Positions 2,372 through 22,875 of a stretch of 64,000 nt of DNA are shown piece by piece. This DNA is from Lepidurus packardi. Lineage: Eukaryota > Arthropoda > Branchiopoda > Notostraca > Triopsidae. The notes under the pieces are model-generated. The model did not search any database and was not told the DNA's origin. It was given only the letters and a program-made list of their open reading frames with translations. The stretch's first letter is position 1; every line of letters starts with the position of its first letter. Made by a program: the position numbers and the translations under genes. The DNA lies in the NCBI GenBank assembly GCA_023053545.1, contig JAKZAN010000007.1, positions 1,488,001-1,552,000 of the forward strand, read 5' to 3'.

Positions 2372-3162
2372 CTTCTTAAGCAAGCTTTTTACTGGTGAAT
2401 TTTACTTGCGAGTACACCTGGTATACTGATGAGCTGTGGCGGTAGCAACAACCTGACCAAGCAATGCGTACAATGTATCCCTCAGGTGAATACTGTACTC
2501 TCTACTAAAAAACAAGACGACAGGTTGGACTGCCGAATAAGCTGTGACAACGGAATGTTAGTAGTGGTGAACGTGGGTAGGTGGCTGTTCTGGGTTCGTC
2601 TGTTGGTGGTCTGTTGTGGTCGATTTTGAAATGTGTAGAGGTTTTTAGCTGTGCCAGTCTATGATTTTTATTTACTGTTGATTTTTAAAGAAACGGCTTT
2701 GTTTGATGTCATGTCATTATTATGGCATTAATTATGGTATTCTGTAAGTCCTAAAACTATTTGATATAGAGCAGAAAACGGACTTGACTGATAGGAGAAA
2801 AGATGGTCAGTAAAAATATGAAATGTTATCAAGTTCTTATATGTATCAAAGCATTTATCAATAGATATTAAGTTGTATCAAAATTTATCAGAAATGCGAA
2901 TTAAAATGCGAACCAAATGCGAAACGATAACGAACTGAAATTGCATGTTTTTTTTTTTTTTTTTATTGGCATGTTTTAATGGTTTGCTTTTTAGCTGTGA
3001 TTTTTATTAATGTTATTAGCTGTGATTATAATATCAGAAGACATTTGCGTTATTGGTAGATATATATTTTGTAAGTTTTTCGCTAATACAGTGAATTCAC
3101 TATTACATGCAATGCAAATACAAATCTAGGTTATTTAGAATAAAAATGTTGACAAAACAATA
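2372..3162. other. intergenic, no gene seen
   Basis: AT-rich sequence between the SDR gene start and the RPA-like ORF. It contains a T-tract near 2949-2970. I see no ORF with family character and no clear RNA gene. Confidence 0.5.
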
Positions 3163-4218
3163 TTATTTTTTCTTGGTGACGTTGACGATTTCTTTTTTTT
3201 CTAGGTCTACCGTGAAGTCGAAGTCTTTTGTCGTTAGTAATTTCACGATGACAGCATTCGCAGTGTCTGGAGTCAGTTGTAGAGTTTCTTCTTGTTTGCA
3301 GAAGTCTTTTAGTATGGTTTCTGTCATCGATGCTTCGATAATGTTATTATCGTTGAAGAAACCGACTGTGCCTTGGAAAGTTAGTGGAGTCGTTTGTCTA
3401 AGTTGAATTTTTTTGCAGTTTGTGCACGTAATGGTAGGGTCATCGTTATCTGGAATGGTCGGTTGTCGTTCTGTTTTTTTTTTGCAGGCTAGGCAGGTTT
3501 GGAAAATACCAATGTTGCAGTGGGCTATGGCTTCCAGTATGATGGGCTCCGTTGTGTCGTCTAAAATGGGTTGCTGGATGTCCAGTTGGGCTTCTGTTCT
3601 TGTAAAGAACGATTGCTGCGTCAAGGCGAAGTTTTGATAATCTTGATTTTAGATGACATCGGTAATTTCGTAAACTTTGTTTTTTTCGATAGTAACTGTT
3701 TGGTTTTTCCAGGTAATTAGTGTGGAAGTACAGGTATCGTCTCCAATTGTTATTTCGCGGAACGTTTGCCCTTTGTTCGTTGTCTTCTCTTCGCTAATGT
3801 TTTGGATTTGAACGATGATTTTGTAACGGGTGTCGGGAAACTCTATACAAGTTTGAAGTGTGGCTTGTTGCTGTTTTCTTGGCGAATAATTAAATTTGAG
3901 CGTTTGATTTGTCTCGCTGATTTGCGAAGATTGGGTAATCTTAATAAGATCGTATTTAGTTCTTTTTTGTGGAGTCTGACCTGAAGGTGAGCTATTCGGT
4001 AGGATTTGGATGGTGATGGGTATCTTGGCGGTCGAATAACGTTTAATTCTGCTATAGGAGCCAGCAATAAACGACAAACATTCTTCGTATGTATTGTCCG
4101 ACGTCTGCAGAAAAAAGCGAAAATTTTGGCCTGGAATTTTGGTGTACTTCGATGGACTCTGGTTTTGGCGCAAAGGGGTTATGTCATGGACGTACCCGGT
4201 GTAAGCGTCTGCTCCCAT
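3163..4218 (-). pseudogene. RPA-like ssDNA-binding protein, interrupted by one in-frame stop
   Basis: A minus-strand reading frame runs from ATG 4218 to 3163 and is broken by a single TAA at 3649-3651. Codons on both sides are in the same phase with no stop in the 25-nt linker. The part before the stop looks like OB-fold DNA-binding domains: GYVHDITPL near the start, a typical opening of RPA70-like DBDs in mobile elements, then a second segment around YKIIVQIQNI...TWKNQ. The part after it has a Cx2C...Cx2C knuckle (CLACKKK...CTNCKKIQ) followed by a strand pattern like the zinc-containing RPA DBD-C. The start has a good AACCATGG context, and a 5' leader intron ends just upstream (TTTCCACCAG, about 4232). 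Such genes occur with Helitrons, and a Helitron ORF lies 9 kb away on the same strand. Family assignment rests on pattern, not alignment. Confidence 0.55.
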
Positions 4219-4330
4219 GGTTGCCGTTTCTGGTGGAAAGAGAATAAGACATGATGAGAAGAGTTGCAGTGAAGAACTATTGGATTAAAAAGTTGTGAAA
4301 TGAAACTATTTACTTACTTTTGCAATAGGG
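4219..4330 (-). other. putative 5' leader intron of the RPA-like ORF
   Basis: On the minus strand a consensus donor (AAAAGTAAGT, near 4311-4320) faces a pyrimidine-rich acceptor (TTCTCTTTCCACCAG, near 4232), about 85 bp apart. The ATG at 4218 follows the acceptor by about a dozen bases. This suggests the RPA-like gene was transcribed with a spliced leader exon. It is a prediction from motifs only. Confidence 0.4.
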
Positions 4331-4426
4331 TGTTTCGGAATGGTGAGGTGAAATTGCTTTCAATTTCTTTTTTGGAACTGTGTGATGAATATTGATTTGC
4401 ACTTAGTGTTTGGGAGCTGTGAGTGG

Positions 4427-5301
4427 ACTGTTTTCTGTCATTCCGTGTGAGGTCTTTTATAGTCGGGTTCTATCGTAGAGTTGATGCCTGGAAGAGTAGG
4501 TTCTTCGTAAAGTCAAGTTCGGTCAAAGTCCAATCATGGAGGCAAAGGTTCAAGTCAATTAGTCAGGTCATTTTCTTCCTTTTGTTAATGAAAAGGGTAC
4601 AATTTAGAAAGAAAAAATTTCAAAGGTGTACCAGCAGTTAGGGATGGTCAATTGAAATTTGTATCCTTAGTTCGAGTGTCAAAGCACATTTTGAAGTTTT
4701 CTTGCTTAGTAGCTGGATGCAGTTGTCTTATTGTTTGCCGCTTTTGGTGTGTTTTTAAAAGGTGTCACGTTGTGGAAGGCAGTTAAATTGCAGTTGGGTT
4801 ATGCGTATATCGAGTTAAAATAGAGAAAAATACATGATGGTTTTGTATTATACGGAAATCCCAAACTATTTATCTAAAATGCAAGAAATATATATTATGT
4901 ACCTGAGGTAAATCTTTGAAAATGAAAACATCATATTTGTTTTAAAACATACCAATATTTTGAAATGTACTAAAATTGGTAAAAAAAGTGTTGACCGTTT
5001 AATTGGGTGGGAGGGTCCAAACGTCGTGAAATTTGTATGACGCCGCATTTATGGACGTTCCCTTATTAATAGGGAATGCTTTTCCTTAAAATAGCTTTCG
5101 ATAATGATCGAAGCCATTTATTCGTAGGGCAATTCGTTTTACGACTTGATGATTTTAGAATGGTTGGAAATTTTTTGGATTGTTATTTTTACAAACGAAA
5201 TAGAATCGGTGGTATCTATGCCGGTATTGGTGCTCATGGGAAATGTTGTCATATTCCATACCTACTATAAGGAAATACTTATAGAACAACATTATAGTTT
5301 C
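4427..5301. repeat. direct repeat, copy 1 (~875 bp)
   Basis: This segment matches 6044-7080 almost throughout: the same opening ACTGTTTTCTGTCATTCC, the same interior landmarks (AATGCAAGAAATATATATTA, ATAATGATCGAAGCCATTTA) and the same end near AGTTTC. The copies differ by scattered substitutions and small indels, so the duplication is old. No coding content is apparent. Confidence 0.8.
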
Positions 5302-6043
5302 ACCTGATTATTGCTGAGCTGCGTAACTGTCCGTGTTAAGAACGTGGAATATTCGATTTGTTATTTATGATTAATAGCAGAAAAATGTATTTAAAATGTG
5401 TGATCTGAATGTACATTTTACTGTCACTGGGTGTTTGCGGAGTATATTATTGTGTCTGTCTTTTTGCGATGCGGAATTTTGTACTGCTTAGCTATATGAT
5501 GTGATTATGGCATGTTTTGTAGCTTCGTATTTACAAGTCTGACATTTGAATGTAAACAACTTTATGATCTGAATATACCGGGAGTTGAACAAATTTTTGG
5601 GCTTCGGCACAGCATGTATAAATTGGTGTGGTTGGGAGTTTTCCTTTTTTTATTTGTATTGTGTGTAAGTGGCGTATTCCGTGTAGCCTGCAGTAATAAG
5701 ACAAGGTACGTATTTGAAAGTGCTGTCGATCGAGGGATTACTGAAAGTAGTGAATTTTGTTGTTAAAGCATTTATTTTGTTAACGTACCGAAAGTTGCAA
5801 AATTCTTACGTTTCAGTTCAAAAAGGGTGTAGGGGACTTTTTTCTTTTTGTCGTATGTTTACGTTTGTACTCATCAGGGCTGAAGCTACTCGATGTCTTG
5901 ATACGACAGGGAATTTCGCCATAGTTTATGTGGACTGTAAGAAACAAAAATTATATTCATGACGTTATAAGTGAAAGAGTAACGTGGTTAAGGTCAATAA
6001 AAACGCTTACCGAAAGTTGAACAAATCCATATGTATCGGTCCA
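5302..6043. other. spacer between direct repeats, with one diverged ~200-bp unit
   Basis: No gene is recognised. Around 5650-5850 the sequence resembles the repeat units of 10.5-12.5 kb (same ACCGAAAGTTGCAA, GGGTGTAGGGGACT and GTGGCGTATTCCGTGTAGCC words). Confidence 0.4.
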
Positions 6044-7080
6044 ACTGTTTTCTGTCATTCCGTGTGAGGTCTTTTATAGTCGGGTTCTATCGTAGAGTTG
6101 ACGTGTGGAAGAGTAGATTCTTCGTAAAGTCAAGTTCGGTCAAAGTTGAATCATTAGGAGAAAGGTTTAAGTCATTAGTCAAGTCATTTTCCTCGCTTTG
6201 TTAATGAAAAGGGTAAATTAAGAAAGAAAAAATTTCAAAGGTGTAGAAGCAGTAGCGACAGTCAATTGTAATTCTCATCCTTATTTCGAGTGTCAAAGCA
6301 CGTTCTGAAGTTTTCTTGCTTGGTAGGGATAAGGGGTGGACTGGCCTATGGGGCATTGGGGCAGGTGCCTCATGTGCCGGCTCAAATGCCCCATGCGGCG
6401 GCTCAAATTCCTTCTTTATTACTCAGCGGCACCGGCAGGTAGAAAATCCCCATTGCCCGCTGTAGAGCCAGTCCGCTCCGGGTAGGGATGCAGTTAATTG
6501 TCACTGATGTTTGCCGCTTTTGTGTGTTTTTAAAGGGTGTCATGTTGTGGAAGGCAGTTGAGAAATTGTAGTTGGGCTACGTATGGAGTGGAAATATAGA
6601 AAATACTTGATGGTTTTGTATGACAGGGAAATCCGAAACTATTTATCTAAAATGCAAGAAATATATATTATGTACATGAGGTAAATCTTTGAAAATGGAA
6701 ACATCGTATTTGTTTTAAAACTTACCAATATTTTGAAATGTTCTAAAATTGGTAACAAAGTGTTGACCGTTTGGCCGGTTTGGGTGGATGGGTCTAAATG
6801 GCGTGAAATTTTTATGACGCCGCGTTTACGGACGCTCCCTTATTAATTGGGATACTGGTTTTCCTTGAAGTATAGTTTTCGATAATGATCGAAGCCATTT
6901 ATTCGTAGGGGAATTCGTTATACAAGCTGATGATTTTATAATGTTTGTAAATTTTCTGGATTGTTATTTTTACAAACGAAATAGAATCGGTGGCATCTAT
7001 ATATATAGTCGTGTTATGGGAAATCTTGTCATATTCCACCCACTATGAGGAAATACTTGTAGAACAACGTTTTAGTTTCA
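6044..7080. repeat. direct repeat, copy 2 (~1037 bp, with insertion)
   Basis: Diverged second copy of 4427-5301. It is longer by about 160 bp because of the insertion at 6331-6480 plus its duplicated target. Without the insertion the two copies have almost the same length. Confidence 0.8.
6331..6480. mobile_element. 150-bp MITE-like insertion with 9-bp target duplication
   Basis: Absent from the paralogous direct repeat at the equivalent position. It is flanked by GGTAGGGAT at 6322-6330 and 6481-6489. Its ends form imperfect terminal inverted repeats sharing a GGACTGGC core (AAGGGGTGGACTGGCC at the left, GAGCCAGTCCGCTCCG at the right). It is GC-richer than its surroundings and has no ORF. 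A target duplication of 8-9 bp would fit a hAT-like or Mutator-like non-autonomous element; the superfamily is not decided. Confidence 0.7.
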
Positions 7081-7740
7081 GTTATTTACTTACTTTAGTC
7101 TGTGGGAGTTTGGAAATGGCAGCTGAAGGCGGTGGGAAAGTGTGCTAGTGTTTGATGTAGTGTTTGTTGTAAAATGAGAATGAACGTAAGTGTTGCGGGA
7201 CAGCAAGACGTGAAAGGTCTGAGTGTGATACGCACGGTATTGTTGATGAATCCTGTATCTTGTTGAATACATGATATTCTAGGCAAAACTGTGAAAATCA
7301 ATATTTGTCAAATAGTTGTATTCCAAATTCTAGAGTGAAAGGAGCTGATTAGACTATATGTGTAGTTATATATATACACTTTTGTAGACTTTGGGACGAT
7401 TGTATAAATCTTTTTTGTTTTCGGTATTCTTTAGAATTATTTTCACATATCGTATTTGCAGATGAATTTATTTGAATTATTATTTACTTATGTACATTTG
7501 CTTTGTATAATTATATTTATATAATTTAACAGGCATTGCCCATTTTGTTATGTATTCGATGAGGCATATACATTTGTGTGATTCTGATAGGCTTGAAGCT
7601 CCGTATTTGGTAATTGAATGAAAATAACTTTGTGATCTAATAGTACGTTTCATGAACAGTTGTAGAATTAGGTATGTTTGAGTAAATATGATGTAACGTT
7701 AATGATGAATATAGCAGGCCCGTATCAGGGGGGGGGGTTG

Positions 7741-8427
7741 GGGGTTCAAACCCCCCTCCCCGAAATGTTTTTTCTCCATGACGATATTATATACTACCCC
7801 CCAAAACCCCTCCGGAACCAAAATCCTGGATAGGGGCCTGGAGTATAGTCATATGAAGTAATATATATGTTGGTTTGAGTCAGGGGTTTGAGTATGTCAG
7901 CAATTTTGAGAGCTTATGTACTGTGAGTAAAGAGTAAAAATACAACAATCGTTTTGTAGCTTTGTATCGTTGTGAAGCAGGAATTTATTAGTACGAGACT
8001 GTGGGAATACACATTTTGTAAGTTACATATAGAGTCAGGCTTGGGCGACCTTGGAGTTGAATTGGACACGGGGTTTGGGGGGGTTTGGGGGTTCAAACCC
8101 CCCTCCCCGAAATGTTTTTTCTCCATGACGATATTATATACTACCCCCCAAAACCCCTCCGGAACCAAAATCCTGGATAGGGGCCTGGAGTATAGTCATA
8201 TGAAGTAATATATATGTTGGTTTGAGTCAGGGGTTTGAGTATGTCAGCAATTTTGAGAGCTTATGTACTGTGAGTAAAGAGTAAAAATACAACAATCGTT
8301 TTGTAGCTTTGTATCGTTGTGAAGCAGGAATTTATTAGTACGAGACTGTGGGAATACACATTTTGTAAGTTACATATAGAGTCAGGCTTGGGCGACCTTG
8401 GAGTTGAATTGGACACGGGGTTTGTGT
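7741..8427. repeat. tandem duplication, period 347 bp, two copies
   Basis: The unit beginning GGTTCAAACCCCCC at about 7743 recurs at about 8090, and the later landmark GAGTTGAATTGG recurs at 8054 and 8401. Both offsets are 347 bp. The copies look identical by eye, so the duplication is recent. Each unit starts with a G-rich/C-rich palindromic head (GGGGGTTCAAACCCCC), which looks like a transposon terminus. The second copy ends beside the MOGS fragment. Confidence 0.85.
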
Positions 8428-8429
8428 TG

Positions 8430-9600
8430 TGTACAGACTGCTGAACTCGGGAATTAACGTGGAAAAAGCCAATGCTACCTAACATGTTGCTCAAGGCAAG
8501 TTGGGCGAAGTGAATTTCTTTGTCGCTAAATAGAACGATTCGGTCTCCGAGAAATAGAACGGTTTTTCGAAGCGGTTTTCGAAACTGTGGCGTCTTTCCT
8601 GGAGAAGGTTATCTCAATTTGCCTCTTTCAAGGACTGCTGAGTTCTGGCTGCGTGACTGGCAGGCTCTAATACGATATCGAGGTGGCAGGAATTTGTGCC
8701 CGTGATTTGGTTAAGTACGAAATTTGGCTGACTTTTTTTCGGCCCATAGTGCCTGGAAGACATGACATACTTTTCTTGGCCTCTCTTACAGAGTCTCAAG
8801 TTGTGGAGCACGGCGTCTTTCAACAGGACAGGACCAGGACGTATGGTGGACAGATCAGCTTTATATGAGCAACGCGATCGGGATAGCCATTGACCTTGGT
8901 CAAGACTTTTGTTGGAGACTTGCTGTCACTAGAGTCAACAAGGCGCAAATCTTCTTCCGTATTCTCGTCAACAGCAACGTAAAAATAGAAGGCTACTTCG
9001 TCGTCTTCAAGTTTTGGGACCTGGAAGGAAAAATTGACTTTGTACTGGAATTAATTGTTATTATTGCCGGAACGATAACAACAAATAAGTACGGATTATT
9101 ATGCCCAGTTTTTAACGACAATTTGTACGAATCAACCCTATTTGACTGACACGTTTGTGAACGTCAAGTCCTACTCGTATGACTTAGACAACTCGTTGGT
9201 GGAAACTCGCTGAGTTAATTAATTTACCCTAGGTTTTGCTGTAAATCTTATAGTACAGTCAACTAAGACATGTTCATCTAGCGGCTGCTTAACAAACGCG
9301 GTTTCAAGTTCTAAGTATCCATTGGGTATATGTTGAACACCAAAGGTATGTCCGTCATGCTGAAGCCAACCATAGCTGTTCACCTTACCGCCTTGGTCGC
9401 AAGTATGTTTTGAAAATAATTACGAAATTGTAGAACGCTCAGAAATGAAGCGGGATTTGACGAACCGTAGACCGCTGTGTCTCTGGCTGACTCGGCTCAT
9501 GGCGAGACATATCAAAGTGGAATCAAAGACGCCAGATCGTGGGTGTGGAGGCCCAAGTAAACTGGTATGCCGGTAAGTACCCCAAATCTAGCTCAGGTAC
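8430..9600 (-). pseudogene. MOGS: mannosyl-oligosaccharide glucosidase (ER glucosidase I) fragment, decayed
   Basis: The minus strand encodes pieces of MOGS, the ER enzyme that trims the terminal glucose from N-glycan precursors, in the right order. From high to low coordinate: a YLGLHTHDLASL-like segment near 9540-9575; GWLQHDGHTFGVQHIPNGYL with TAFVKQP (about 9240-9400); a FYFYVAVDEN segment (about 8980-9010); PNFVLNQITG and LDIVLEP (about 8650-8720); RFEKPF (about 8560-8580); and FAQLALSNMLGSIGFF (about 8465-8515). There is an in-frame TGA before RFEKPF and a frame change just after it, so this copy cannot make the normal protein. Only roughly the N-terminal 40 per cent of the family is represented. 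The fragment sits in the mobile-element region. Whether it is a captured or a degenerate local copy is not known. Confidence 0.75.
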
Positions 9601-10545
9601 AGTAAGGCCAGTGACAACCACCACCTTACAAGTCCAGTTTATTAAATTCACTTTCGAATTCTGGAAGTAACGATATAGTTTTTATCAAGATACCTTATTG
9701 GGCTCACTTGGGCTTACTTAAAGTCTTTACTCGAGTTTCCAGATAAGTTTGGTAGACGAAGTAAAATACAACTGATACGACTGCAGTAGGGAGGATACTG
9801 TAAACGCTACTGCTTTTTGAAGTACGCCGGCATGGTTTTCCTTTATTCTCTAAATTAAATAATTTGAATGTGATTTTCTATATAATATTAATAGGTTCTA
9901 CATTACTGACGTTACCGGGATGCTTTACATGATCTATCTCATTATCGCTCTTGAAAGAACGGTTTTGTCTGTAGCTTTCTTAATTTGTCGAGTACATAAC
10001 GATCCGCTATTATCTTTATAGGTATAGCATGGCTTCCCTTTGTCCTTGCGGGCTTGCGCTGTTGGGCCATTTACTGTAATATAAGTAAATTTTGTTAGCC
10101 GTTTTCATGTTTTTATATTAATATTGGGATTATAAGTTAAAAGAAAAAGGACTTCACTCGTGAAAAACTTACAGAAATACAGTATAGTAGAAATCTAATG
10201 TAAAAGAATATAAAAAAATACGTCTGTTGTTTTGAAAAAGTATGTAGAGGGCAGGCGCGTCACTTTTGCTATTGGTTGACACAAAATTAAGCCGCGCTTG
10301 TTTTGACCAACTGGCTATTAGCAAAAGATTTGAGTAACTTTTTCATGACTTCAATTTAAATTCGATACATCTGAATCAAATTTATTGGTATTTTAATTTA
10401 AAAAATAATATTTTTTTATTCATGAATTGTGTTGGAGTGCATGAAATTGATACACTCCAAAACAGTTGATGACTGGAATAGATTTTAAATGTAATTAACT
10501 GTTAGTGATGTGACGAATTCACGGATATGGTTAAATTCAATAAGA
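9601..10545. other. non-coding, AT-rich
   Basis: No recognisable coding sequence. Small inverted repeats are present: TTGGAGTG/CACTCCAA at about 10432-10460, and an imperfect CTTTTGCTA.../...TAGCAAAAG pair at about 10266-10332. Neither could be tied to a known element end. Confidence 0.4.
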
Positions 10546-11608
10546 AAAAGCTTACCGAAAGTGTTATATAAATCCTTTTGTTTTGGCTCAGAAAGCTTGT
10601 CAGAGACTTCTTTGTGTGTGCATGTGGCCGAATCCATGAAGTTGACAATGTGAAAGGGTGTAGGAAATCAAATTTGCGTCTATGAGTTTACTGAAAGTAA
10701 TCGTAAATGTCGGTATGATAATGCAATTAATGAAAGTTAATGGAAAAGCTTACCGAAAGTGACAAAGTTTTTAGGTTTCGGCCCGTAAAGTGAGGGATTG
10801 ATACTTTTCTTGTTCTTTTTTTTATGTCATGTAGGCTATATCAGTGGCGGATTCCATACAGCCTGCACTATAACGAAGGGTATGTATTTGAAGGTGTCTA
10901 GACAGGTTTGAGTGAAAGTAGTGAACTTTGTTATAATAAAGATTCATGTTGTTGAATTCTAAAAGGAAAACTTACCAGGAGTTGCAACATTTCTAGGTTT
11001 CATCTCATTAAAGGGGTGTAGGGGACTCTTATTGTTATAAAGTGATGATTCCGTAAAACCAGCAGTCTGAAAGGGGTACGCGCGTAGTTGTATTGGTCTA
11101 GCTGTTTACATTGTCTGTCTCTGAAAAAGTAATAAACCTTGTTATTATTATATATAAGCTTTATATTCTTTACTTCAAGAAAGCTTACCAAAAGGTTCAG
11201 GAATCTTTAGGATTGGTCTCGAAAAGTGTATTTGGGACCATACAGCATGCAGTGTGAACTTGAATTAGCTTCGTGTATGCAATAGTGACTTGTTTTTCAC
11301 GTACAGCGTTGCTATAGTATTCAGCATTTACGGCTGTTGTATCATTAGATTTCACTAGGGTAGGAACTACTCAGTTTCTCAATATTATACCACCGGGAAT
11401 TCTGACATATGCTTTATGTGAACTGTAAGAAAGAAAGGGTATTTTGCATTTTACCGGAATTTTTTGTTTTTGCCTGCAAACAACTTTTTTAAGCATTTTA
11501 AACGTCGCTGATTCCAAAAAAAAACAATCATTTTGCGCGGAAAGTATTATTTTACTATGTTTTATGTTGCTGTGTTTTACTATGGTTGCTGTTGAAGACA
11601 GGTATGTG

Positions 11609-11647
11609 ATTAGGTTAGGTTAGGTTACGTTAGGTTAGGTTACGTTA
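11609..11647. repeat. interstitial (TTAGG)n array, left part
   Basis: Tandem TTAGG pentamers with occasional TTACG variants. TTAGG is the canonical arthropod telomeric repeat. The array continues at 11893-11973 after the inserted MITE. Confidence 0.9.
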
Positions 11648-11892
11648 GGGCCGATTTCCACTGAAGGTTAAGGCGCTTAGCCTATATGCTTAAGACAATT
11701 CAAACAAAAATAATTCACCAAAAGGATAATTCATGATAATTCACCAAATAATTCAGTTTGATGAAGGAGGCGTAACCTCATAAAACTGAATTATTTGGTG
11801 AATTGTCATGAATTATCCTTTTGGTGAATTATTTTTGTTTGAATTGTCTTAAGCATAGGCTAAGCGCCTTAACCTTCGGTGGAAATCGGCCC
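11648..11892. mobile_element. PIF/Harbinger-like MITE, 245 bp, TTA target duplication
   Basis: A nearly perfect long hairpin: the left arm begins GGGCCGATTTCCACTGAAGG and the right arm ends with its reverse complement, with one mismatch. Arms are over 110 bp around a short loop near 11765-11780. It is flanked on both sides by TTA (11645-11647 and 11893-11895). GGGCC ends with a 3-bp TTA target duplication are characteristic of PIF/Harbinger MITEs. It has no coding capacity and the arms are nearly identical, so insertion may be fairly recent. Confidence 0.85.
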
Positions 11893-11973
11893 TTAGGTTA
11901 GGTTAGGTTACGTTAGGTTAGGTTAGGTTAGGTTAGGTTAGGTTACGTTAGGTTAGGTTAGGTTACGTTAGGT
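11893..11973. repeat. interstitial (TTAGG)n array, right part
   Basis: About sixteen TTAGG/TTACG pentamers in the same orientation as the left part, ending at about 11973. Confidence 0.9.
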
Positions 11974-12864
11974 GATGTCGATTTGGAATAAATGTTTTGT
12001 CGAAAAGGAATGATTATTACATACATAAGATTTCCATCTTTTGTGTTGCAAATTTCCATGATACAGTGTTTTCCGCGCGAAATGATTGCTTTTTTTTGGA
12101 ATTACCGACCCTTAAAATGCCAGAAAAAATTGTTTGCAGGCAAAAACAAAAAATTCCGGTAAAGTGCAAAAACTCCGAAAGAAAATATGTATTCATGAAG
12201 TTAATTGAAGGAATTATATTATTACATTCAAATAGCGAAAACTTACCGAAAGTAGTACGAATCCTTATGTTTTGGCTGACAAAGGGTGTTGGAAACTTTT
12301 TTTATATGTTTATATGTCCCGAGTCCATAAAGCCGGTAGTGTCAAAGGGTAGGTAATTGAATTCGTCTATTAGGAATCACTGAAAGTAGTAAAGTTGTTA
12401 TTATCATATTGTAATGCGATTTGAATTATGAAAGTCAATAGGATAAGCTTACCGAAAGTTCAACAAGTTTTTAGGTTTCGGCTCGGATTTTCGTTTACCA
12501 ATACCAATATTAGTAAAAAGTGGTGAGTTAACGGGTGGGTTGAACAGCAAACATCTGTTACTTAGGTTTGTGGGTGGTCCCGTAGAAGGGAACCAATCCG
12601 TGGTTTTTTCGTGTTAGTTTCATGCATGATGGTTTCATGCGATCCTGCTAATTTCATTCAGTAAGTATAAGGACATATATACGTACGGAAGTTTCACGGC
12701 GCGTGGCTGAATTGTGAAATAGTGTTAATAGTAATCGGTGATAACTTGTAGTATATCCATATTGTTGAGTATCTTGTATTGTAATTGCTGACCATCTTGT
12801 CACTTTTAGTATACAGAATATTTAACTGCTTATCCGTAGGGTATAAGAATCGGAAATGTCGTGC

Positions 12865-15800
12865 TTATGACTTTGGGATTTCAATGTAAACAATTTTATG
12901 ATCGGAGTAATATGTTTCGTATACGCCGGTTTTGGGTTGATTAAAACTGGTGTAAATATGATCTAGTGTTGACATATAGTCAGTGGTATAGGCGGTTATG
13001 TGTTGTTGAAGACGTAGGGGTTTAAGTATTTGTGTTACTTTCCATAAATCTGTTGCACGAGTGTGTATGTCTATATTGAAATCACCTATAATTACTATAT
13101 TTTCATAAGATGTATCTATATCACTTATTAAATTGTGTAGCGCATCAAAGAAATTTTCGACGTTGAACCCGTGGTGTCTGTACAAAACGTAGATTGCAAG
13201 TGATAGTTGTGCAATATGTAAACTGCAAAGTTCGAGGTATTTGTTGGAACAACGTCTAGTGAACATTCCGTCGAGTTTTGAATACATAACCATTCCATAA
13301 GGTGAATTTCCTTTGTGATTTGTAGTGAAATCCATACGGTGTAGATCAAAAGAATCTAGTTTATAATCAGCGTCGTAGTCTGCCGCGCATAAACGAGTCT
13401 CACATGCAGCAAATACAGTAGTTGCTTTGATGAACGGATCATTTACAAGGTCAAGGAAATGTTTACGCAATGAGACTATATTTAAAAATGCAATCATTTT
13501 TGTTTTTGTATGAACAATAGATCTTGGATCTAATAACGTTAACTGTTGAGGTTTCGTTCGTAAACGATCCATTTCTTTTTTGGTGTCGGAGGAAATTTTA
13601 ATACCAGGTTCATTGAGATCTTCTATAAAAAGTCCCTCAAGCCGTTTGGCCCTACTGATAGCAACGTAATGCATGTTTGACGTAGCTCTTCCTAAATTGA
13701 CAATTACCTGCTCCATTGTTTGTCCTTGTGCACGGTGAATTGTTTTCGAGCTGTTTGGCCGTAGTGGATACTGGAGTCTTTCAAATTCAGCTCGGTTGTA
13801 GGTGTATCTACAAGTTATTGGAAATATTGGCGTCCAGTTAGGCTGAAGGGTACAATCTTGCTTGTAGAGATGAGAGTACTTTTGACGACACTGTTTTCCT
13901 ATCGTCATTTCCTTGAACTCAACCCAAATAGGAGTATAAGCGGCTGACTGTAGAACTAAGCACTCGCAGACTGAGGAAGATTTCAATATTCCTTTGTCTG
14001 CAACTGGTAAGTGTAAAGGTAGTTTCTTAATAATGCATTCTGACCCATTAGCCAAGCCATCATTAACATCAGAGTTCATACTGTATTCGAAAGGCAAATC
14101 TATTGCTATATGTAAATAACGAATGCAATTGGTATTAGTAATTTTATCCGGCAGTGTGTTTAAAAGACATTTTATATCAACGCCTTTACACCCTCTTACT
14201 GGAAGGTCGGTACTGATAATTATTGCTCTCTCTTGTTTTGCGTTTTCCCATTCCTTTTGGTTGTAGAAATCAATATCATTATTCCGGTAACTGATTCGTT
14301 GTACACAATTGGGAGACGTTGAAGTGATTCGGCTACGTAGGATAGAAATATCTTCAGGAGTTTGCTTGCCTTCTCGTAACCTGTTTAGGAGTTCCGCGAA
14401 GAGAAGGTCGTCTTTTTGACGCATGATCTGCTGTAGCTCAAACATTTTAAAGTTGTCTAACCAAAGATGCTCAGATAAGCAGCGTGCTCCCGTATTCGAA
14501 TATTTAAAAACAGGCTGAGCTTTCGTTGGTGGTAGTTGAAAGAGGTCTCCGACACACAATACTGATTTACCTCCAAATATCTGCGACGAGCCAAAAATTT
14601 CTTTTAAGCGAAAGTCAATGTAATAAAGCATATTTATTCCTACCATAGAAATTTCGTCTATTATGAAAAGTTCTACATCGCGGAACAGTAAATATAATTC
14701 CGAGCGCACTTGAGATTGCAAACACAAAAAAGTATTATTAGCGTCGAACATTCTTCCTATAGGAATATGAAATGTGCTGTGTATCGTTGATCCGCCTACA
14801 TTAAAAGCGGCTTTGCCAGTGTAAGCTACAATAACCACTTTCTTTGTATCGGGATTTGAGTTCGGACCTTTGTTAAAATAACGGGTTACACATGCGTCAA
14901 TCGCTCGAACAACTAAACTTTTGCCTGTTCCGGCTCCACCGCTAAGGAATCTACAATAATTGCCAGCTTTTGTTTTATGCATGTATAACAGATCTAAGAC
15001 AAATAGTCGTTGTTCTATATTTAAACAACGCATCATAGAGAAATACTCCTCATCTCGTATACCATACTTTTCGACTGACGAAGCTGTTTTACCTAAGCTC
15101 AGATCATTAGGGTGGGTATTTGGTAAATCTCTTCCTATGTCTGCTTCAGGCATGCAGTTGTACTCAGGGTCGAAAATTTGATTGGAATCAGTTTGCAATT
15201 CCTTCAGAGTTTCTTCGTCTTCCGATTCTGAACCGTTGAAAGTGTTATGATCCACTAACTCGTGTAAAGGTTTGCTCAGTATATCGTCTACAGCATCACT
15301 GCTGGGTTCAAAAAATTGGCGTTCTTTTTGAATACGGTTGAAAACATCACGCTGGAAAAATGTAGTCTCGTAAGTTTCTTGAGTTTTAAGATCATTGTGA
15401 TCCCTCCATGGCCAGTACAACATGAGTTTACTATGGAAATATTTTTCAGGGTTTGTGTCACGACGGTAGTTCATGAACCTTAAGATTCGATGTTTTGTTC
15501 GTACATTATAGACCGAATGTTTCTTCTCTTTTTTGTCATTATCGAAAGACTCTTTATTGTCATCTTCAAGTTCTGATTCGCCAGAGTATTCGGTTTGTTC
15601 TATACAATAACCATCGTCACCAACAATATTGGAATCATTGTTATGATATTTATGCGTGTAGTTTGTGACATATTCTGCTAAGCTTGTGTTCTCTAGGTAG
15701 TTCGGTCTCTTCGAATATCTATCTAAAAAATTTTCAGATATAACATTTTCGTTTTCATCGTCCATTTTCTTAATGACTGCAAAAGGTTTCGAAAGAATTA

Positions 15801-18800
15801 CTCTATCCTCAGGTTGACATGTGGGAACGAACACAACAGCCCTGCTGAATTTTCTTAAAGGCAACTGAAGAAGTAAAAAAACAGCTTCTTGCACACCAAC
15901 CTCTGTGGAATTTAAGAATTTGTTGCCCACCATTCTAAACTTTTCTCTAAGCGTAAAATTTCCTTCATGTACTTCTTTTACCACGTTACGAAGAGTTTCG
16001 CTCATACCCTTTTGCGATTTGGTCATGTAACTTGCAATATATGAGGCAGCTGCGTAAGCATCAAATACATACTGAATGTCCATATTTGCGTCCCAGAATT
16101 CTAGGAGTAATGGATTAAAAGCATTTACCATACATTCGTTAGGCGCACGTTTCAAGAACAATGTTGTTTTGGTAATACGTGTTCGCAAAGCACCAATATA
16201 AGTTTCTAAATTAAATCCACACTCGCACAAAAAGGAGTCAAAGGTGGCAAATGTTTCACAAGAAAGGTTCATTAATTCCTTAATTTTTTTCCAAGCAAGA
16301 CTATATTTATTTATGTTGTCTTTTGGCTCGTTGGACTCGAAAGGTTTGAGCAACATTGTGTTCGGGACGGGAGGTTTCGGGAAAGCGAAGCGGCATTTCT
16401 TGTTTTTCCCTTTTACTTTACAGGTAAATGTGTGTCTGTGTTTTTGTACTTCAATGGCCTTTTCTGTGTACGGACCAGATAATTGACAAGAAACGTACTT
16501 GTCTACATACCGGATTAAGGCTTCGTCGAACGACTGTTCATCTTGAAAATCAGCGCGTAAGGGTTGGTTATCACACCAAACGAACAAATGAATATGGGGG
16601 GAGCCACGTTGTTGAAATTCCACACGTATTGCATAATCTTTAACTTTGCCAAGTGGTTCGATTGGGTCTCTGAATAACTGTAGAAGTTTGTCTACGCGGT
16701 AATTAAAGTATCTTGCACAAGTGACGTTGTCTTTGAGTAAACGACATTTGTCTAACCATGCTAACGATTTAAGTTCAACATCCGTGTACAAGCGTTTATC
16801 AACCGTTTTTCCTAATATTCGCAGGAGGTCAAGCCATCTAGTTTCTGCTGCTGAAAAGCTTAAAAAAAATGCAGGGGGTCCCAGTTGACGAATCATGGCA
16901 AATAAGTCATGGCATACGCGCTGGAAATAAGGAGGCGATCCACGTACAGATTTTAGGAAATTGAAACCTCCGTCAAACTGCAATGAACGTAAGACTTCCG
17001 GGTTTTTCAGCATCCGTGCGTTAAAAGAAGTTCCTGGTCTTTTATCCTTAGCCTTTAAAATTCTCGTCCCGAAGCGCATAGTGTCAGCTATCTTCTTTAT
17101 TTGTAGTTTCTTAACTTTGAAAAATATGTTAATTTCGTCTTGAGCAACACGACGATCGACATGTTGTAACTCAGCTTTGCAAAGAGAACTGTAAGAAACC
17201 GGTCGAGATCGAAAATGACCATTTGTATATTGATCGTTAGGATTGAGACAGTAAGCTGGTCTTGCAAAGCCACAAAAGATGTGAGGGAAGGCAAGTTCTT
17301 CGCAGTCCTTATCGCTAAGTATACCCAATGGTCGCTTGTTTTCTCCAGGTGCTATAATATGAATAACGTCGTCACCTTCCCCATGTAAAAAATTTTCGTT
17401 CAATAATATAGTATCCATATTGACTCTAGCAATATCTTCAGAAATTTCTGTGTCACTACTATCACTGTGTGGCTTTGTTTTGGAAAATATAATAGAGTCC
17501 ATTGATTCTGGATCTGATGCACCATCAGTGATGACGCTTTCTTCAACACACACTTCCGGAACATCTTCCTCTGGTACAAATTGCCAATTCTCTGCAAATG
17601 AGATATTATGTTCAATAAATAATGGACGTGTGACTAGCAGTTTAGCTGCGTTACGCACCAAGTTAGGACGAACAGTTTCTACAAACTCTGGTCGAGTATA
17701 AGTTAACTTTCTTTTCAAGGCCACTTTTATTGTTTCAAAATCTCTAAATTTTCGCGGTAATTCTGTAATGGTTTCATCAATATCATGTGGAATATTTACG
17801 ACATTTCCTTTCAATTTTGACTGACCTCCTTGTCGCTGTGGTTGTAATCTTAAGAACATGAGACGAGGGGATATCAATCTTCGTTCCATAGGGTTTAAAT
17901 CTTCAAGAACTTTAGGCAATTCTGGGAAGCCAACTTTATTTAGTTTTGACATTGGAGGAATTTTACCCTTCTGCAGATATCTGAAACACGTTATGCACAC
18001 GAATTCGGTGTGTATGGCTCGAAAACACGAAACAAATAACTGGCTTGCGCAAGATATGTCATTATCGTTAAGTTCATCGATGGCTGTTTGCAGTTTTTTG
18101 GCAGGAAACAATGAACGCTTAAAAAAAAGTTGGGAACAACTTCCGCATATAAAATCTGGTCCTTGACTCAGTAAAGTTTTCATCTTTTTCAAAGCTATAT
18201 CAACACGCGTATCTGAAGAATTTTCATTGCTCATAGAAATTAAAGGCAGTGTACTCTTGTTTATATCTATATTCACTTGTTTTTCTTCGTGACGGTTCCC
18301 AGCAGAAGCGTTAATACGCGTTGTCTTAATTTCCGTTTTCATACAAACCAATTCTGGATCTTCATTATGCATATAAGGACACATTACTATGCTGGATTTA
18401 TGACTAATACATACGTTATTGAAGTCCATAATGCATTCGAAGACACCAAGAGGCGATTGTCCTTTTAAGCAACGTGTTGTTTCTAAGGTAAAGCAGTAAA
18501 TACTGAAGTGATGTAAGTCATTCAACCCAATAAAACATTCTTTCAGTACATTAGGCAGAGCAAAAGTAGTAATATTTTTGATCTGTGCACAACGATCCAA
18601 TAACGCACAATGCACGCTACAGCTCCGTTTTGCATTATTATGACTAGTGAAAAGGTTAATAGTGTCATTTTCTGTTTTAAAGATACCAATACAGTAATTT
18701 CTGTATTCAACGACGAAGTAACTACCCTCTCGCAAGGCTAAACTGAAGTACGTACTAAATTGTGAAGGTAAAACTTTTGTACACAAAATTCGTGAAAAAC

Positions 18801-21030
18801 ACGTGAACGAAAGTCCCATATCTGGGAAAGAAAACTTACTAGGTATCTTTGTAAGTGATATTTGAGACTTGTAATCTGCGTACAAGTTATATAACGTCAT
18901 TCCAATTTTACGTATATGTCGAATCATCTCAAAGTTAGTATAGTCAATTTGAAGTAGCCCTCTAAAAATAGCACAACGTAACGCCAAAAATACAACAGTG
19001 AAAGCTACTGATTGACCACATTTGCGATCAATGTAAAAGTTGTCTGCGATTTCTATACCCTTACATAAAACAGAATGCCGAACTAAATGGCTACGATTTG
19101 AAAGCTGTAAGCCACATTCAGGACATTCAAAACTCGTAATACTGGTGGATAATAAGTTTTGACAACTAAGCTTGTGTTTATGAAGCAGGGCTCGATTAAC
19201 GATAGATTCACCACAACCTAGGCATTGCACTTCCTGGCTATTAGACGAAGAGTTACTGGTTATATTAGTATGGTCCTTAAGTAATGTTACGACTTTCGGA
19301 GAATGAGGATTTCGGATATCGTTCTGTAAGTCAGCTACTTTTGTCCCAACTTTTTGAATGAAGTTCTCTTTACTTAGAGTATCTGTTTGACAATGTTTCC
19401 CACTGTCATTTGCAGGTTTTAAGCATATATTCGTAGTCTGTTGAGAAAAAGGGAGACATATTTTGAAATGTCTTTGTAAATTCGAAGAACGAGTAAAAAT
19501 CCTATAGCAGTTCTCACATACAAATTCTTTTCGCTCCTGTTCACTAATTTCTAAAATGTTACTCGGAAGATCATACACTAAAGTTGCAGTATTCTTATTT
19601 CTTACATTAGCGCATGGTGCTGTACTTTCCTTATCCACATGAACAACTCCGATTTGTCTGTCAAATCCTGACTTAGGCGAAAAATGTGTTAGTTTGCAAA
19701 ACGAGGAATGTCGATTTAATCCACGGCGCGTAGAAAATGTTCGCAGGCAATTCCCACAAGTATTTTCATTCTTTTGTGACGTTTCACTGCCACTAAGTCT
19801 CTCCTCAATAGTCTTGGCCTTACTGATCTGTAAGTCTTCATTTCCTTCACACTTTATATTCTTAGGAGCGTGCTTACTGTAATAACTAAATGCTGAATCG
19901 TGAGTAGTTACCGTTGTCTTATTCTCTTTTGGCAAATCTGCATTCACTTTGTGGTATGTCATCACATTTAACAGCAATGTAGGCTGACAGCTGTCATCTA
20001 GATGTTGTACCTTTTTATTGTTAACGTTAATAATATCTTTCGGGAAAGCAAGGTCAGCATTCCTTTTATAGGTTTCTTTGCTAGCATTTGAACCAGTCAA
20101 ATCAATTACTACTGGTACTTCGTTTCCATGTATAAGCGGAAAAGATTTCAACTTTTGCTTCATTTCAGTCGCGATGGTAAGGTCTTCTCCACAAAATGAA
20201 TTTTGACAATCGTTCTTTTCTGATTTCAAATTTTTCGTATTATTCATTTTCGATTTTTTCGGTTTCTCTGATGTCTTTTTATCAACATCAGCAGGAAGGC
20301 ACATATTAGTAGCATAGCTAGCAGTTATATTACCGATAGTTACAGCCCGTGTTAGCCTTTCATTGCATATACCACGACTACACCTACCTACAGTTTGTAC
20401 AAGTGTATTCAGACGTGCATTTCCTAATTCTTTGCAACAAACTGGCACAATGTCATACTGCGGATTACCATGCGATAACACCGAACCATACATGTTCCGT
20501 AGGTACCCAATTAATTCATGGAATTCTAGTTCTAGCAGGACAGCAGTACCCATACTATCAGGTTTACCAGAGGCATCTCGTGCATGCGAATCAAAAAGAA
20601 AGTATTTTCCATTGCGCTCCATAATGCTTGTACAATGTGAGCAACTAATAAAAAGCACACCAGCACAGCTATGTGCAGCTCTTACGGAATCTTCCAAAGT
20701 GGTAGCATATGGATGAGTTTCCCGTGGACATATAAAACCAAACGCATCTTGCCCATGCAGAAACGTCTCTAATATACCAAATTCTTTAAAATCCAAGTAT
20801 CCCGGTAGTTCGGCAGAAAAAAAATACCTCTCACGGTGCTCGTAAGTTCGGTATATTTCATCTCCCATCGTCATTATATCACACATGTTTTTTTCAATCC
20901 ACTCGTTAGGAGGAACCAAATAACTCCATGCAATAGATACAAAAGCCATCGGTGTGCACTGAGCACCACGACTAGAAGCAGAAAAAACATGCGCAAATTG
21001 CGAATACGGCGCTCTACAGATCAACCTCAT
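12865..21030 (-). CDS. Helentron-type Helitron polyprotein: C76-like protease x2, zinc fingers, Rep, PIF1 helicase, endonuclease
   Basis: One uninterrupted frame of 2721 codons from ATG 21030. Domains in order: residues 10-190, herpesvirus-UL36/C76-like cysteine-protease fold with GAQC (Cys25) and FDSH (Asp147, His149); four C2H2/C2HC-type fingers at about 425-445, 505-525, 603-623 and 635-656; about 668-850, a second C76-like copy with GQS and FTSH, lacking Cys and Asp; a cysteine-rich segment at 960-1020; Helitron N-terminal region at 1270-1460; HUH Rep motif SPHIHLF (His1479, His1481) and two catalytic tyrosines YIASY (1664, 1668); PIF1 helicase with Walker A GGAGTGKS (2031-2038), IIDEIS and TIHRAQGQT; C-terminal exonuclease-endonuclease-phosphatase domain (2508-2720) with ETRL, GDFNID, LDHIY and SDHK. 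Rep, helicase and C-terminal endonuclease together define Helentrons, rolling-circle transposons. All core residues are present, so the protein could be active. It acts on DNA in the nucleus; the protease domains' targets are unknown. Confidence 0.93.
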   Translation of the reverse strand: MRLICRAPYSQFAHVFSASSRGAQCTPMAFVSIAWSYLVPPNEWIEKNMCDIMTMGDEIYRTYEHRERYFFSAELPGYLDFKEFGILETFLHGQDAFGFICPRETHPYATTLEDSVRAAHSCAGVLFISCSHCTSIMERNGKYFLFDSHARDASGKPDSMGTAVLLELEFHELIGYLRNMYGSVLSHGNPQYDIVPVCCKELGNARLNTLVQTVGRCSRGICNERLTRAVTIGNITASYATNMCLPADVDKKTSEKPKKSKMNNTKNLKSEKNDCQNSFCGEDLTIATEMKQKLKSFPLIHGNEVPVVIDLTGSNASKETYKRNADLAFPKDIINVNNKKVQHLDDSCQPTLLLNVMTYHKVNADLPKENKTTVTTHDSAFSYYSKHAPKNIKCEGNEDLQISKAKTIEERLSGSETSQKNENTCGNCLRTFSTRRGLNRHSSFCKLTHFSPKSGFDRQIGVVHVDKESTAPCANVRNKNTATLVYDLPSNILEISEQERKEFVCENCYRIFTRSSNLQRHFKICLPFSQQTTNICLKPANDSGKHCQTDTLSKENFIQKVGTKVADLQNDIRNPHSPKVVTLLKDHTNITSNSSSNSQEVQCLGCGESIVNRALLHKHKLSCQNLLSTSITSFECPECGLQLSNRSHLVRHSVLCKGIEIADNFYIDRKCGQSVAFTVVFLALRCAIFRGLLQIDYTNFEMIRHIRKIGMTLYNLYADYKSQISLTKIPSKFSFPDMGLSFTCFSRILCTKVLPSQFSTYFSLALREGSYFVVEYRNYCIGIFKTENDTINLFTSHNNAKRSCSVHCALLDRCAQIKNITTFALPNVLKECFIGLNDLHHFSIYCFTLETTRCLKGQSPLGVFECIMDFNNVCISHKSSIVMCPYMHNEDPELVCMKTEIKTTRINASAGNRHEEKQVNIDINKSTLPLISMSNENSSDTRVDIALKKMKTLLSQGPDFICGSCSQLFFKRSLFPAKKLQTAIDELNDNDISCASQLFVSCFRAIHTEFVCITCFRYLQKGKIPPMSKLNKVGFPELPKVLEDLNPMERRLISPRLMFLRLQPQRQGGQSKLKGNVVNIPHDIDETITELPRKFRDFETIKVALKRKLTYTRPEFVETVRPNLVRNAAKLLVTRPLFIEHNISFAENWQFVPEEDVPEVCVEESVITDGASDPESMDSIIFSKTKPHSDSSDTEISEDIARVNMDTILLNENFLHGEGDDVIHIIAPGENKRPLGILSDKDCEELAFPHIFCGFARPAYCLNPNDQYTNGHFRSRPVSYSSLCKAELQHVDRRVAQDEINIFFKVKKLQIKKIADTMRFGTRILKAKDKRPGTSFNARMLKNPEVLRSLQFDGGFNFLKSVRGSPPYFQRVCHDLFAMIRQLGPPAFFLSFSAAETRWLDLLRILGKTVDKRLYTDVELKSLAWLDKCRLLKDNVTCARYFNYRVDKLLQLFRDPIEPLGKVKDYAIRVEFQQRGSPHIHLFVWCDNQPLRADFQDEQSFDEALIRYVDKYVSCQLSGPYTEKAIEVQKHRHTFTCKVKGKNKKCRFAFPKPPVPNTMLLKPFESNEPKDNINKYSLAWKKIKELMNLSCETFATFDSFLCECGFNLETYIGALRTRITKTTLFLKRAPNECMVNAFNPLLLEFWDANMDIQYVFDAYAAASYIASYMTKSQKGMSETLRNVVKEVHEGNFTLREKFRMVGNKFLNSTEVGVQEAVFLLLQLPLRKFSRAVVFVPTCQPEDRVILSKPFAVIKKMDDENENVISENFLDRYSKRPNYLENTSLAEYVTNYTHKYHNNDSNIVGDDGYCIEQTEYSGESELEDDNKESFDNDKKEKKHSVYNVRTKHRILRFMNYRRDTNPEKYFHSKLMLYWPWRDHNDLKTQETYETTFFQRDVFNRIQKERQFFEPSSDAVDDILSKPLHELVDHNTFNGSESEDEETLKELQTDSNQIFDPEYNCMPEADIGRDLPNTHPNDLSLGKTASSVEKYGIRDEEYFSMMRCLNIEQRLFVLDLLYMHKTKAGNYCRFLSGGAGTGKSLVVRAIDACVTRYFNKGPNSNPDTKKVVIVAYTGKAAFNVGGSTIHSTFHIPIGRMFDANNTFLCLQSQVRSELYLLFRDVELFIIDEISMVGINMLYYIDFRLKEIFGSSQIFGGKSVLCVGDLFQLPPTKAQPVFKYSNTGARCLSEHLWLDNFKMFELQQIMRQKDDLLFAELLNRLREGKQTPEDISILRSRITSTSPNCVQRISYRNNDIDFYNQKEWENAKQERAIIISTDLPVRGCKGVDIKCLLNTLPDKITNTNCIRYLHIAIDLPFEYSMNSDVNDGLANGSECIIKKLPLHLPVADKGILKSSSVCECLVLQSAAYTPIWVEFKEMTIGKQCRQKYSHLYKQDCTLQPNWTPIFPITCRYTYNRAEFERLQYPLRPNSSKTIHRAQGQTMEQVIVNLGRATSNMHYVAISRAKRLEGLFIEDLNEPGIKISSDTKKEMDRLRTKPQQLTLLDPRSIVHTKTKMIAFLNIVSLRKHFLDLVNDPFIKATTVFAACETRLCAADYDADYKLDSFDLHRMDFTTNHKGNSPYGMVMYSKLDGMFTRRCSNKYLELCSLHIAQLSLAIYVLYRHHGFNVENFFDALHNLISDIDTSYENIVIIGDFNIDIHTRATDLWKVTQILKPLRLQQHITAYTTDYMSTLDHIYTSFNQPKTGVYETYYSDHKIVYIEIPKS

Positions 21031-22836
21031 GCTTTAATACCAGAAAAAACGAGCAGATGTATTATTAATTAACTGTGTAAAAGAAAGCAACCGTATAGTG
21101 AAATGTAAATAAATATTTTCAACCACGAATTACCTATCAATCGTGAAAAATCCAACAATCTCAATAAACAACGGAATCCAGCAATTATCCAAATCTCCAA
21201 CAAATAAATCGTCCGAATTCCAAAACTTCTAGTACATAAAATAGAAGTAATCAGCTCACGAAGGTAACAGGAAGTGCTGAAACATATGAAACTGTTATTC
21301 ATTGAACATTACCTGATACTCCTAAAAATTCCAAAAGATAACCAGCCGGAATAATTATTCAGAAATTATCCACTTATCATACGGGAAAGAATCGTCTAAT
21401 GACAATGCAAACAATGAGTTCAGTTCGCAAAGGCACTGCAAACAGTACAGTACATAATATAAAAGTAATCAGCTCACGAAGGTAACAGGAAGTGCTGAAA
21501 CATATAAAATTGTTATTCATTGAATATTACCTGATACTCCAAAAAATTCAAGCCGGAATAATGATTCAGAAATTATCCAGTTACCATACGGGGAAGAATC
21601 GTCTAATGACAATGCAAACAATGAGTTCAGTTCGTTCAGTTCAGTACTGCAAACAGTACAAAACAAGAAACAAGTCTAATTAACATTGCAGTCACAAAAA
21701 TTAGAGCAGGAGACTGCCGGATCGGAGAAAACAAAAAACAAGAATTTTTCCAAATATCCAAGCAAGAAATCAATCGTCCAAACAGGAAAAATGTCTACCC
21801 GTTAGATATAAGATAAGAAGAAATCAGTCCACAAAACTAACGTAAGTGCTGACATAAGAAGAAATCAGTTCACAAAACTAACGTAAGTGCTGACATAAGA
21901 AATATCAGCATAGAAAGCTACCAATAAAAACAGAATACAATTTTAGCAATTGATCTTATTTTTACCTATGAGTCCTCAAAATTCAAACTCTGCACGATAT
22001 AGTAAGCTTTTGTCACAGCTAATAACAAACGTTTACCAACGTTGATCTGCTACCCTGTCCTATTGATCCTACAGACGTGACGTCACAAGCCCAAAAACTA
22101 TCACGTGCTGGTACGTTCTAACCCGTTTTGTGATCCAATTTGCCCACTTCTGAGAATCTCATGAAAGGAGCACGAACGACCTGGCCGATGGCAATATGTC
22201 CTTATCTCCCACCCACCAAACCCACCCCAAAATAACACAGCCCTTATGGGAAAAACCCGAGCCAAGCTCAGCAACCCACCCTCCCACTGGCAAGGCTAAA
22301 GTCTGGACGATATATTAAGCTGTTGTCACAGCTAATAAGGAAGACAATCGTAGGAAACACGGAAGAAGAAACGGAATAGAAAGAGCCAAGAAAGGTGTGA
22401 GTGATGGTGATTGGTTGAAAAGGGAGCATCATGGCGGTGGAGGTGTAGTCAATATGTACTTTGCTTGCGGAAAGCTTGCTTTGGTCAGGCTTTTCGTTAG
22501 TTGTCCTGGGGTAGGTAGGTTTAAGAAAGAGGTTTAAACTTACCCTAAGCAGACTACGGTTTTCTTTGAACCTGGTTCGTCGTATCGCTAAATAAATGAA
22601 CGGGAACCATTTCATTCTTGCGGCTTGCGTTTTACCATTTGGCCTTGAGCTAGCTTTGCCAGAAAGACATGGGCGGTGTTTTGTGGATTGGCTATCACAA
22701 CCCTAATTCTAGCCCGCGGCAACCGCGGCAAACCGCTGCAAGCCGCTGCAAGCCGCTGCAACTCGCATAAAAGCGGGTTCAGCCATGTTAGGGGAGGGGC
22801 TAGCGATCCGCTGCGAGGGTTGCATGCCGCAGCACA
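21031..22836. other. divergent intergenic region with tandem repeats
   Basis: Separates the minus-strand Helitron ORF from the plus-strand OTU gene. It holds a ~228-bp tandem duplication (landmark TCAGCTCACGAAGGTAACAG at 21251 and 21479), a 41-bp tandem pair at about 21814-21900 containing ACGTAAGTGCTGACATAAG, and a direct repeat of ~45 bp (CACAGCTAATAA word near 22015 and 22328). No coding sequence is recognised. The layout suits a shared control region, but that is inference. Confidence 0.6.
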
Positions 22837-22875
22837 CTATATAAGGCCGTTGCATTGAACCATTCTTCCTTCAGT
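22686..22875 (+). promoter_or_regulatory. TATA/Inr core promoter with upstream GC-rich decamer repeats
   Basis: TATATAAG at 22838-22845 lies 35 bp before an arthropod-type initiator TCAGT (22871-22875), close to the usual TATA-to-start distance. Upstream are an inverted CCAAT box (GATTGG, about 22686) and five head-to-tail ~10-bp units of the form CCGCTGCAAG at about 22713-22763, with more GC-rich sequence to 22830. It drives the plus-strand OTU gene. A leader intron probably follows: donor CAGTAAGG at 22994, acceptor TTCTTCTTACAG ending at 23136. Confidence 0.7.

Follow-up and report, generated by a model that had tools for sequence, protein, structure and literature searches.

Viral tegument-like deubiquitinase domains (VTDs) occur in Helentrons from vertebrates, insects, cnidarians and molluscs, as described in the sections of Erven et al. 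2022 (PMC9741609) on which we draw throughout. In zebrafish, the element DrT1 has two VTDs, both active in assays, and DrT2 has a VTD plus an OTU domain (PMC9741609); the second VTD of the Helitron DrT1 is represented by a crystal structure, PDB 8ADD. Glu377 of DrT1 was proposed to contact the ubiquitin tail, and its mutation lowered activity (PMC9741609). According to the same sections, presumed autonomous Helitrons retain all VTD catalytic residues, pseudogenised sequences excepted, and inactive VTDs occur in insect proteins outside transposons; a figure of the paper draws active and inactive VTDs. A protective role for the VTD in transposition is put forward there as a suggestion, and Helitron VTD activity has been shown for the zebrafish domains (PMC9741609). 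Excerpts of other studies add a UL36 label among the domains in a Drosophila virilis transposon figure (PMC12910113), a gene with a UL36-like domain captured by a fungal Helitron (PMC4289320) and an older description of Helentrons, with OTU (PMC4067079). The original prediction for the locus described here, that an N-terminal VTD pair falls outside the description of Helentrons, is out of date, since the cited sections of PMC9741609 place VTDs in Helentrons and two of them in DrT1.

The window analysed here, a 64,000-nucleotide stretch of Lepidurus packardi DNA, holds a Helentron whose polyprotein contains an N-terminal VTD (VTD1) and a second, degenerate domain (VTD2). As in DrT1 and DrT2, a VTD lies within a Helentron polyprotein and VTD1 has a Cys / Asp-x-His triad, and as in DrT1 there are two VTDs per element. 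In contrast to DrT1, in which both VTDs are active, VTD2 is without Cys and Asp and sits on a very long branch, ~445 residues behind VTD1 and separated from it by zinc fingers. The inactive VTDs of insects (iVTDs; Drosophila CG32436 and CG939, as presented in the cited sections of PMC9741609) are likewise VTD homologues that lack active-site residues, but they have no recognisable transposon context, whereas VTD2 is part of a Helentron that exists in multiple copies and also carries an intact VTD. A database Helentron protein, P0034, also has two VTDs in tandem in one polyprotein. Both of its triads are intact, unlike the pair described here, and its two domains group as sisters in the tree (99/90). 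The P0034 pair thus seems to be of separate origin, and on the same ground derivation of VTD2 from that duplication was rejected. Peptidase C76 of herpesvirus UL36/M48 (Herpes_teg_N) has a homologous catalytic domain, carried by a virion protein rather than a transposon, and the kinship is distant: the VTD1 profile matched the tegument chain 6w2d weakly (E 0.061).

The best reading of the whole, which we consider probable, is a recently active Helentron in which VTD1 is a deubiquitinase and VTD2 a maintained pseudo-deubiquitinase. Among the open-access papers listed and in the cited text sections of PMC9741609, we found no pseudo-VTD in a Helentron, and a dead VTD copy beside an intact one inside a multi-copy Helentron appears to be new.

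The element, its polyprotein and its copies

The coding strand is the minus strand, and the plus-strand frame at 18481..20985 is stop-ridden. In DNA searches of the animal's own genome (108.6 Mb, 344 contigs), the left matches of most other copies begin at 2504-2512 and most right matches stop at ~22336-22344; the sequence common to most copies, from ~2512 to ~22338, therefore gives an element of ~19.8 kb (Table 1). Just past the shared right end, 6 other copies have flanking sequence that differs from that in the window. Inspection by eye revealed a common 12-base motif near both termini, in inverted orientation.

Judged by its domains, the 2721-aa ORF is a Helentron polyprotein. Pfam detects Rep (Helitron_like_N) together with a PIF1-type helicase, as well as a C-terminal endonuclease of the AP type (Exo_endo_phos, E 2.5e-6), and no OTU protease, a domain often but not always present in Helentrons, was found in the polyprotein at E values up to 1. 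In the linker between the two VTDs, four Cys2His2-like patterns can be recognised by eye. The stop that interrupts the accessory ORF in the window is missing from 6/6 other copies examined, and this ORF had neither a Pfam match above cut-off nor a PDB match below E 0.69.

Table 1. Features of the element, in window coordinates.
Feature	Position	Strand	Basis
Helentron-like element, whole, ~19.8 kb	2512..22338	-	DNA searches, own genome
RepHel-endonuclease polyprotein, 2721 aa	12865..21030	-	ORF; Pfam DUF6570, Helitron_like_N, PIF1, Exo_endo_phos
VTD1, residues 1-205, predicted active	20416..21030	-	8ADD match, Herpes_teg_N, triad
VTD1 codon, Cys25	20956-20958	-	
VTD1 codon, Asp147	20590-20592	-	
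VTD1 codon, His149	20584-20586	-	
Linker with C2H2-type zinc fingers	19084..20415	-	Pfam zf-C2H2, 2 stretches passing
VTD2, residues 650-860, degenerate	18451..19083	-	Motifs and profile comparison
VTD2 codon, Ser674	19009-19011	-	
VTD2 codon, Thr795	18646-18648	-	
VTD2 codon, His797	18640-18642	-	
DUF6570, residues 1021-1134	17629..17970	-	Pfam E 2.3e-14
Helitron_like_N (Rep), residues 1358-1483	16582..16959	-	Pfam E 8.7e-22
PIF1-like helicase, residues 2003-2223	14362..15024	-	Pfam E 2e-24
C-terminal Exo_endo_phos, Helentron hallmark, residues 2571-2711	12898..13320	-	Pfam E 2.5e-6
Accessory ORF, 351 aa in copy L045; one stop breaks the window copy	3163..4218	-	

The VTD1 of the window element, which defines family A, recurs at full length and 100% identity (rounded) in at least 19 matches including the window copy, and 11 of these lie within a full open frame of 2722 codons with the stop. 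Family B, 61% identical in VTD1, has at least 13 matches, 8 of them in a 2658-codon frame. These counts for A- and B-type VTD1 are lower bounds, and each family has several open full-length copies. In family C, the copy that was read (L033, on contig C8) has an ORF that breaks off after ~1340 codons and resumes ~1.7 kb further on, probably owing to an insertion (L033 ~4567-6300); a copy on contig C46 has the same frame length as that on C8. Family F comprises three decayed copies on contig C5, ~35% identical and with stops. With the C copy broken downstream and F decayed, A and B are the only open families that carry VTD2. Family D, in the same genome, is without VTD2, which makes VTD2 dispensable in at least one Helentron lineage.

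Spans of ~3 kb with matches to both element ends were found at C6:3288775-3291751, C5:8503370-8506349, C3:874741-877726 and C126:17545-20523, and these are presumably non-autonomous derivatives. Together with the identical open copies, they are signs of recent activity.

VTD1 and the homology of VTD2

Several comparisons place VTD1 in the VTD / peptidase C76 family. As a single sequence it matches PDB 8ADD at E 1.6e-6, and a VTD1 profile of four families (A-D) does so at E 8.6e-18. An outside set of 44 VTD domains from 43 proteins (E <1e-4, coverage >60%, thresholds that very degenerate copies could escape) was chosen with the VTD1 model alone from the best 120 of 655 relatives found in a Rep-helicase search, taken by score and not as a random sample. 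A profile of this set matches VTD1 at E 3.5e-36, with values of 2.4e-35 to 9.7e-45 across families A-D. Herpes_teg_N of Pfam matches VTD1 in 4/4 families at E <1 (best 8.7e-6); the value for the window VTD1 is E 0.0026, at 17.9 bits, below the curated cut-off of 25. When Herpes_teg_N was run across the animal's own genome, only 3 places were recovered, in families D and C, and the window copy was not among them. A protein search with residues 1-900 yielded no homologue, and searches of viral_contigs with VTD1 and with VTD2 found nothing. Single-sequence AlphaFold2 models reached a pLDDT of 37.2 for VTD1, which served as the positive control, and 39.3 for VTD2, and Foldseek returned no match at E 0.001 for the VTD2 model, nor for the control; with the control failing alike, these models weigh on neither side as regards the fold.

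The original prediction read GAQC and FDSH in the first domain and GQS and FTSH in the second, and took the second to have exchanged Cys for Ser and Asp for Thr. The motifs lie where it placed them, and both exchanges are confirmed in the window copy. GAQC corresponds to residues 22-25 and FDSH to residues 146-149, giving the triad Cys25/Asp147/His149; in VTD2, CGQS occupies residues 671-674 and FTSH residues 794-797, with Ser674/Thr795/His797 at the matching positions. The distance from nucleophile to His is 124 residues in VTD1 and 123 in VTD2. The Cys, Asp-x-His, Gln11 (whose equivalents we take to have an oxyanion-hole role) and Glu74 of VTD1 are invariant in 4/4 families, and VTD1 is predicted to be an active deubiquitinase. 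In the 8ADD alignment, Glu74 lies opposite DrT1 Glu377 (numbering as in the cited sections of PMC9741609).

The same prediction had called both regions UL36/C76-like. For VTD1 this is borne out by the 8ADD match, and for VTD2 by comparison with the 44-domain outside set in hhalign, which gave a probability of 91% and E 1.1e-6, a score reached in 0/300 column shuffles. Used as a single profile, the outside set finds VTD2 in register in family B at E 2.3e-4, in A at 0.027 and in C at 0.028. A VTD2 model of families A, B and C matches the VTD1 of family D, which was excluded from the model, at 18.6 bits (0/5000 shuffles). Where the alignments reach so far, they set the Ser and His of VTD2 against the Cys and His of VTD1. 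When hhalign was given only 4 VTD1 and 3 VTD2 sequences, the probability was 2% and 3/200 shuffles were as good, and the VTD2 of family A was equalled or exceeded in 3/5000 shuffles when scored with the A-D VTD1 model. On its own, VTD2 found nothing convincing in Pfam and PDB, DUF4458 being matched by one of 3 VTD2 members at E 0.0092, and a protein search with the VTD2 alignment yielded no homologue. With the catalytic Cys and Asp gone and only the His kept, VTD2 is, on the evidence of these alignments, a very diverged VTD homologue yet no C76 peptidase.

Among the best 120 of 655 Rep-helicase relatives, no VTD2 form was found outside the animal's own genome. The VTD2 model gave nothing under E 0.003 in these proteins outside its own families, and its two best outside matches, P0048 and P0073, proved to be the ordinary VTDs of those proteins.

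Apparent constraint on VTD2 and its possible roles

The catalytic positions of VTD2 were read in a single copy each of A, B and C and in three copies of F, and the remaining copies were judged by match scores. Between families, pN/pS was 0.39-0.53 in VTD2 and 0.44-0.54 in VTD1, compared with 0.72-0.75 in the linker and 0.15-0.22 in the DUF6570 region; these are rough values from 3 sequences, with pS at 0.56-0.86, near saturation. The zinc-finger linker is fast-evolving, and the constraint on VTD2 appears similar to that on VTD1. When six motif columns were taken from VTD1, five proved invariant in the VTD2 of A, B, C and F, where 31/194 columns are invariant overall (P 4e-4 for the enrichment, the motifs having been seen in VTD2 before testing). 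The Gln-Ser and Phe-x-Ser-His columns are invariant in all four lineages. VTD2s of A, B and C are 38-46% identical to one another, and in both domains A and B are the closest pair by identity. The tree unites the VTD2s in a single group on a long branch, with 5.2 changes per column and support of 100/100 from a bootstrap that had not fully settled.

These observations bear on the most serious competing explanation, that a deubiquitinase was once duplicated and VTD2 is its functionless remnant, decaying within the ORF that carries it. In its favour stand the loss of Cys and Asp, the long branch and the absence from family D, but VTD2 is retained at the above identities in A, B and C and survives in decayed F, its pN/pS resembles that of VTD1 and is well under that of the linker, and its motif columns do not vary among four lineages. 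We regard the relic as unlikely.

The preferred reading, with VTD2 as a maintained pseudo-deubiquitinase, would operate as follows. A recently active Helentron encodes a polyprotein that opens with a VTD-type deubiquitinase. By homology, VTD1 would most likely strip K48/K63-type ubiquitin off the transposase or nearby host proteins, and removal of ubiquitin may shield the transposition machinery from the proteasome. VTD2 would be an ancient copy or a paralogue in which Cys (to Ser), Asp (to Thr/Cys) and the Gln11 equivalent were lost while the motif around them was kept, apparently under constraint. It would most likely act as a non-catalytic pseudo-deubiquitinase, for example as a module that binds or positions the substrate or partner of VTD1; in an excerpt of PMC10919355, pseudo-deubiquitinases are said to be possible allosteric activators or scaffolds. 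The homology of both domains, the state of their triads, conservation across four families and a rough constraint are results of the analysis; the activity of VTD1 and the inactivity and binding role of VTD2 are what we infer. Helentrons and herpesviruses have a deubiquitinase in common, and in a recently active element family, an apparently active copy together with a preserved inactive one would mean that catalysis and binding have been separated in nature; the inactive VTD proteins of insects may thereby have a counterpart carried by a transposon. The locus also qualifies the published rule, as worded in the cited sections of PMC9741609, that presumed autonomous Helitrons keep their VTD catalytic residues.

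We aligned 51 VTD domains, comprising the 44 database domains from the best 120 of 655 relatives, 4 VTD1 and 3 VTD2. Among the active-type domains of this alignment, again limited to the best 120 of 655 and our own families, Asp-x-His is present in 48/48, Cys in 47/47 and Gln11 in 46/46 of those with a letter at the position, and position 74 is Glu or Asp in 41/48 and otherwise in 7/48. The triad is changed in 0/44 of the outside VTDs, one of which is without the Cys region. In VTD2, the nucleophile position is Ser in A, B, C and F (4/4) and the His is kept in all four, while the Asp position is Thr in A, C and F and Cys in B. Of the Ser/Thr pair that the original prediction suggested following across related elements, Ser is present in all four families and Thr in all but B. 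At the Gln11 position VTD2 has Glu, Asp or Pro (families A, B and C), and position 74 is Lys, Asn and Lys in A, B and C, respectively; with Lys or Asn at the DrT1 Glu377 position, the case for canonical ubiquitin binding by VTD2 appears weakened.

It is very unlikely, in our estimation, that VTD2 is a working Ser-His hydrolase or a reader of ubiquitin-like marks in a live transposon, and that such elements seeded the inactive VTDs of insects. That VTD2 is still an enzyme, a serine hydrolase evolved from a cysteine protease in which Ser674 serves as nucleophile and His797 is the base, would agree with the invariance of Ser and His in 4/4 lineages and with an Asp position changed solely to Thr or Cys. 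However, the Gln11 equivalent that is universal in the active-type domains is replaced in VTD2, and a cysteine-to-serine swap in papain-like enzymes usually kills activity; we regard the serine hydrolase as highly improbable. Coincidental occurrence of GQS and FTSH in a region that is no VTD, though in keeping with the results in Pfam and PDB, the small-set hhalign run and the shuffles of family A, is contradicted by the 44-domain comparison, the match to family D VTD1 and the alignment of Ser and His, and is, in our estimation, most improbable.

Minor observations within and around the element

An OTU-like ORF at 23162-24211 (+), with a Pfam OTU match of E 0.023 that falls under the cut-off, lies just beyond the 5′ end of the Helentron. 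It was considered as a part of the element and rejected because the element ends at ~22338. A C2H2-finger ORF (24040-26016, +) overlaps it, and a segment reaching into the start of the OTU-like ORF (22674-23200) occurs at 3 other sites at 94-98% identity and is possibly another mobile element. Among database proteins, P0107 of Argopecten irradians is a Helentron-type protein of 3064 aa with both OTU and Herpes_teg_N, its VTD lying at ~729-945.

Three repeated regions were noted inside the element. At 11600-11987, short arrays of TTAGG, the arthropod-type telomere motif, flank an 80-base near-perfect inverted repeat. Direct duplications occur at 4427-7000, where several 42-160-base pieces recur ~1.6-1.8 kb apart at 79-93% identity, and at 7730-8376, which contains an identical 300-base pair with a spacing of 347 bases. 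Elsewhere in the window, exon-like ORFs at 46703-47356 (-), 48194-48766 (+) and 56046-56780 (-), with Prp3_C/RWD, EPTP and sulfatase domains, probably belong to host genes.
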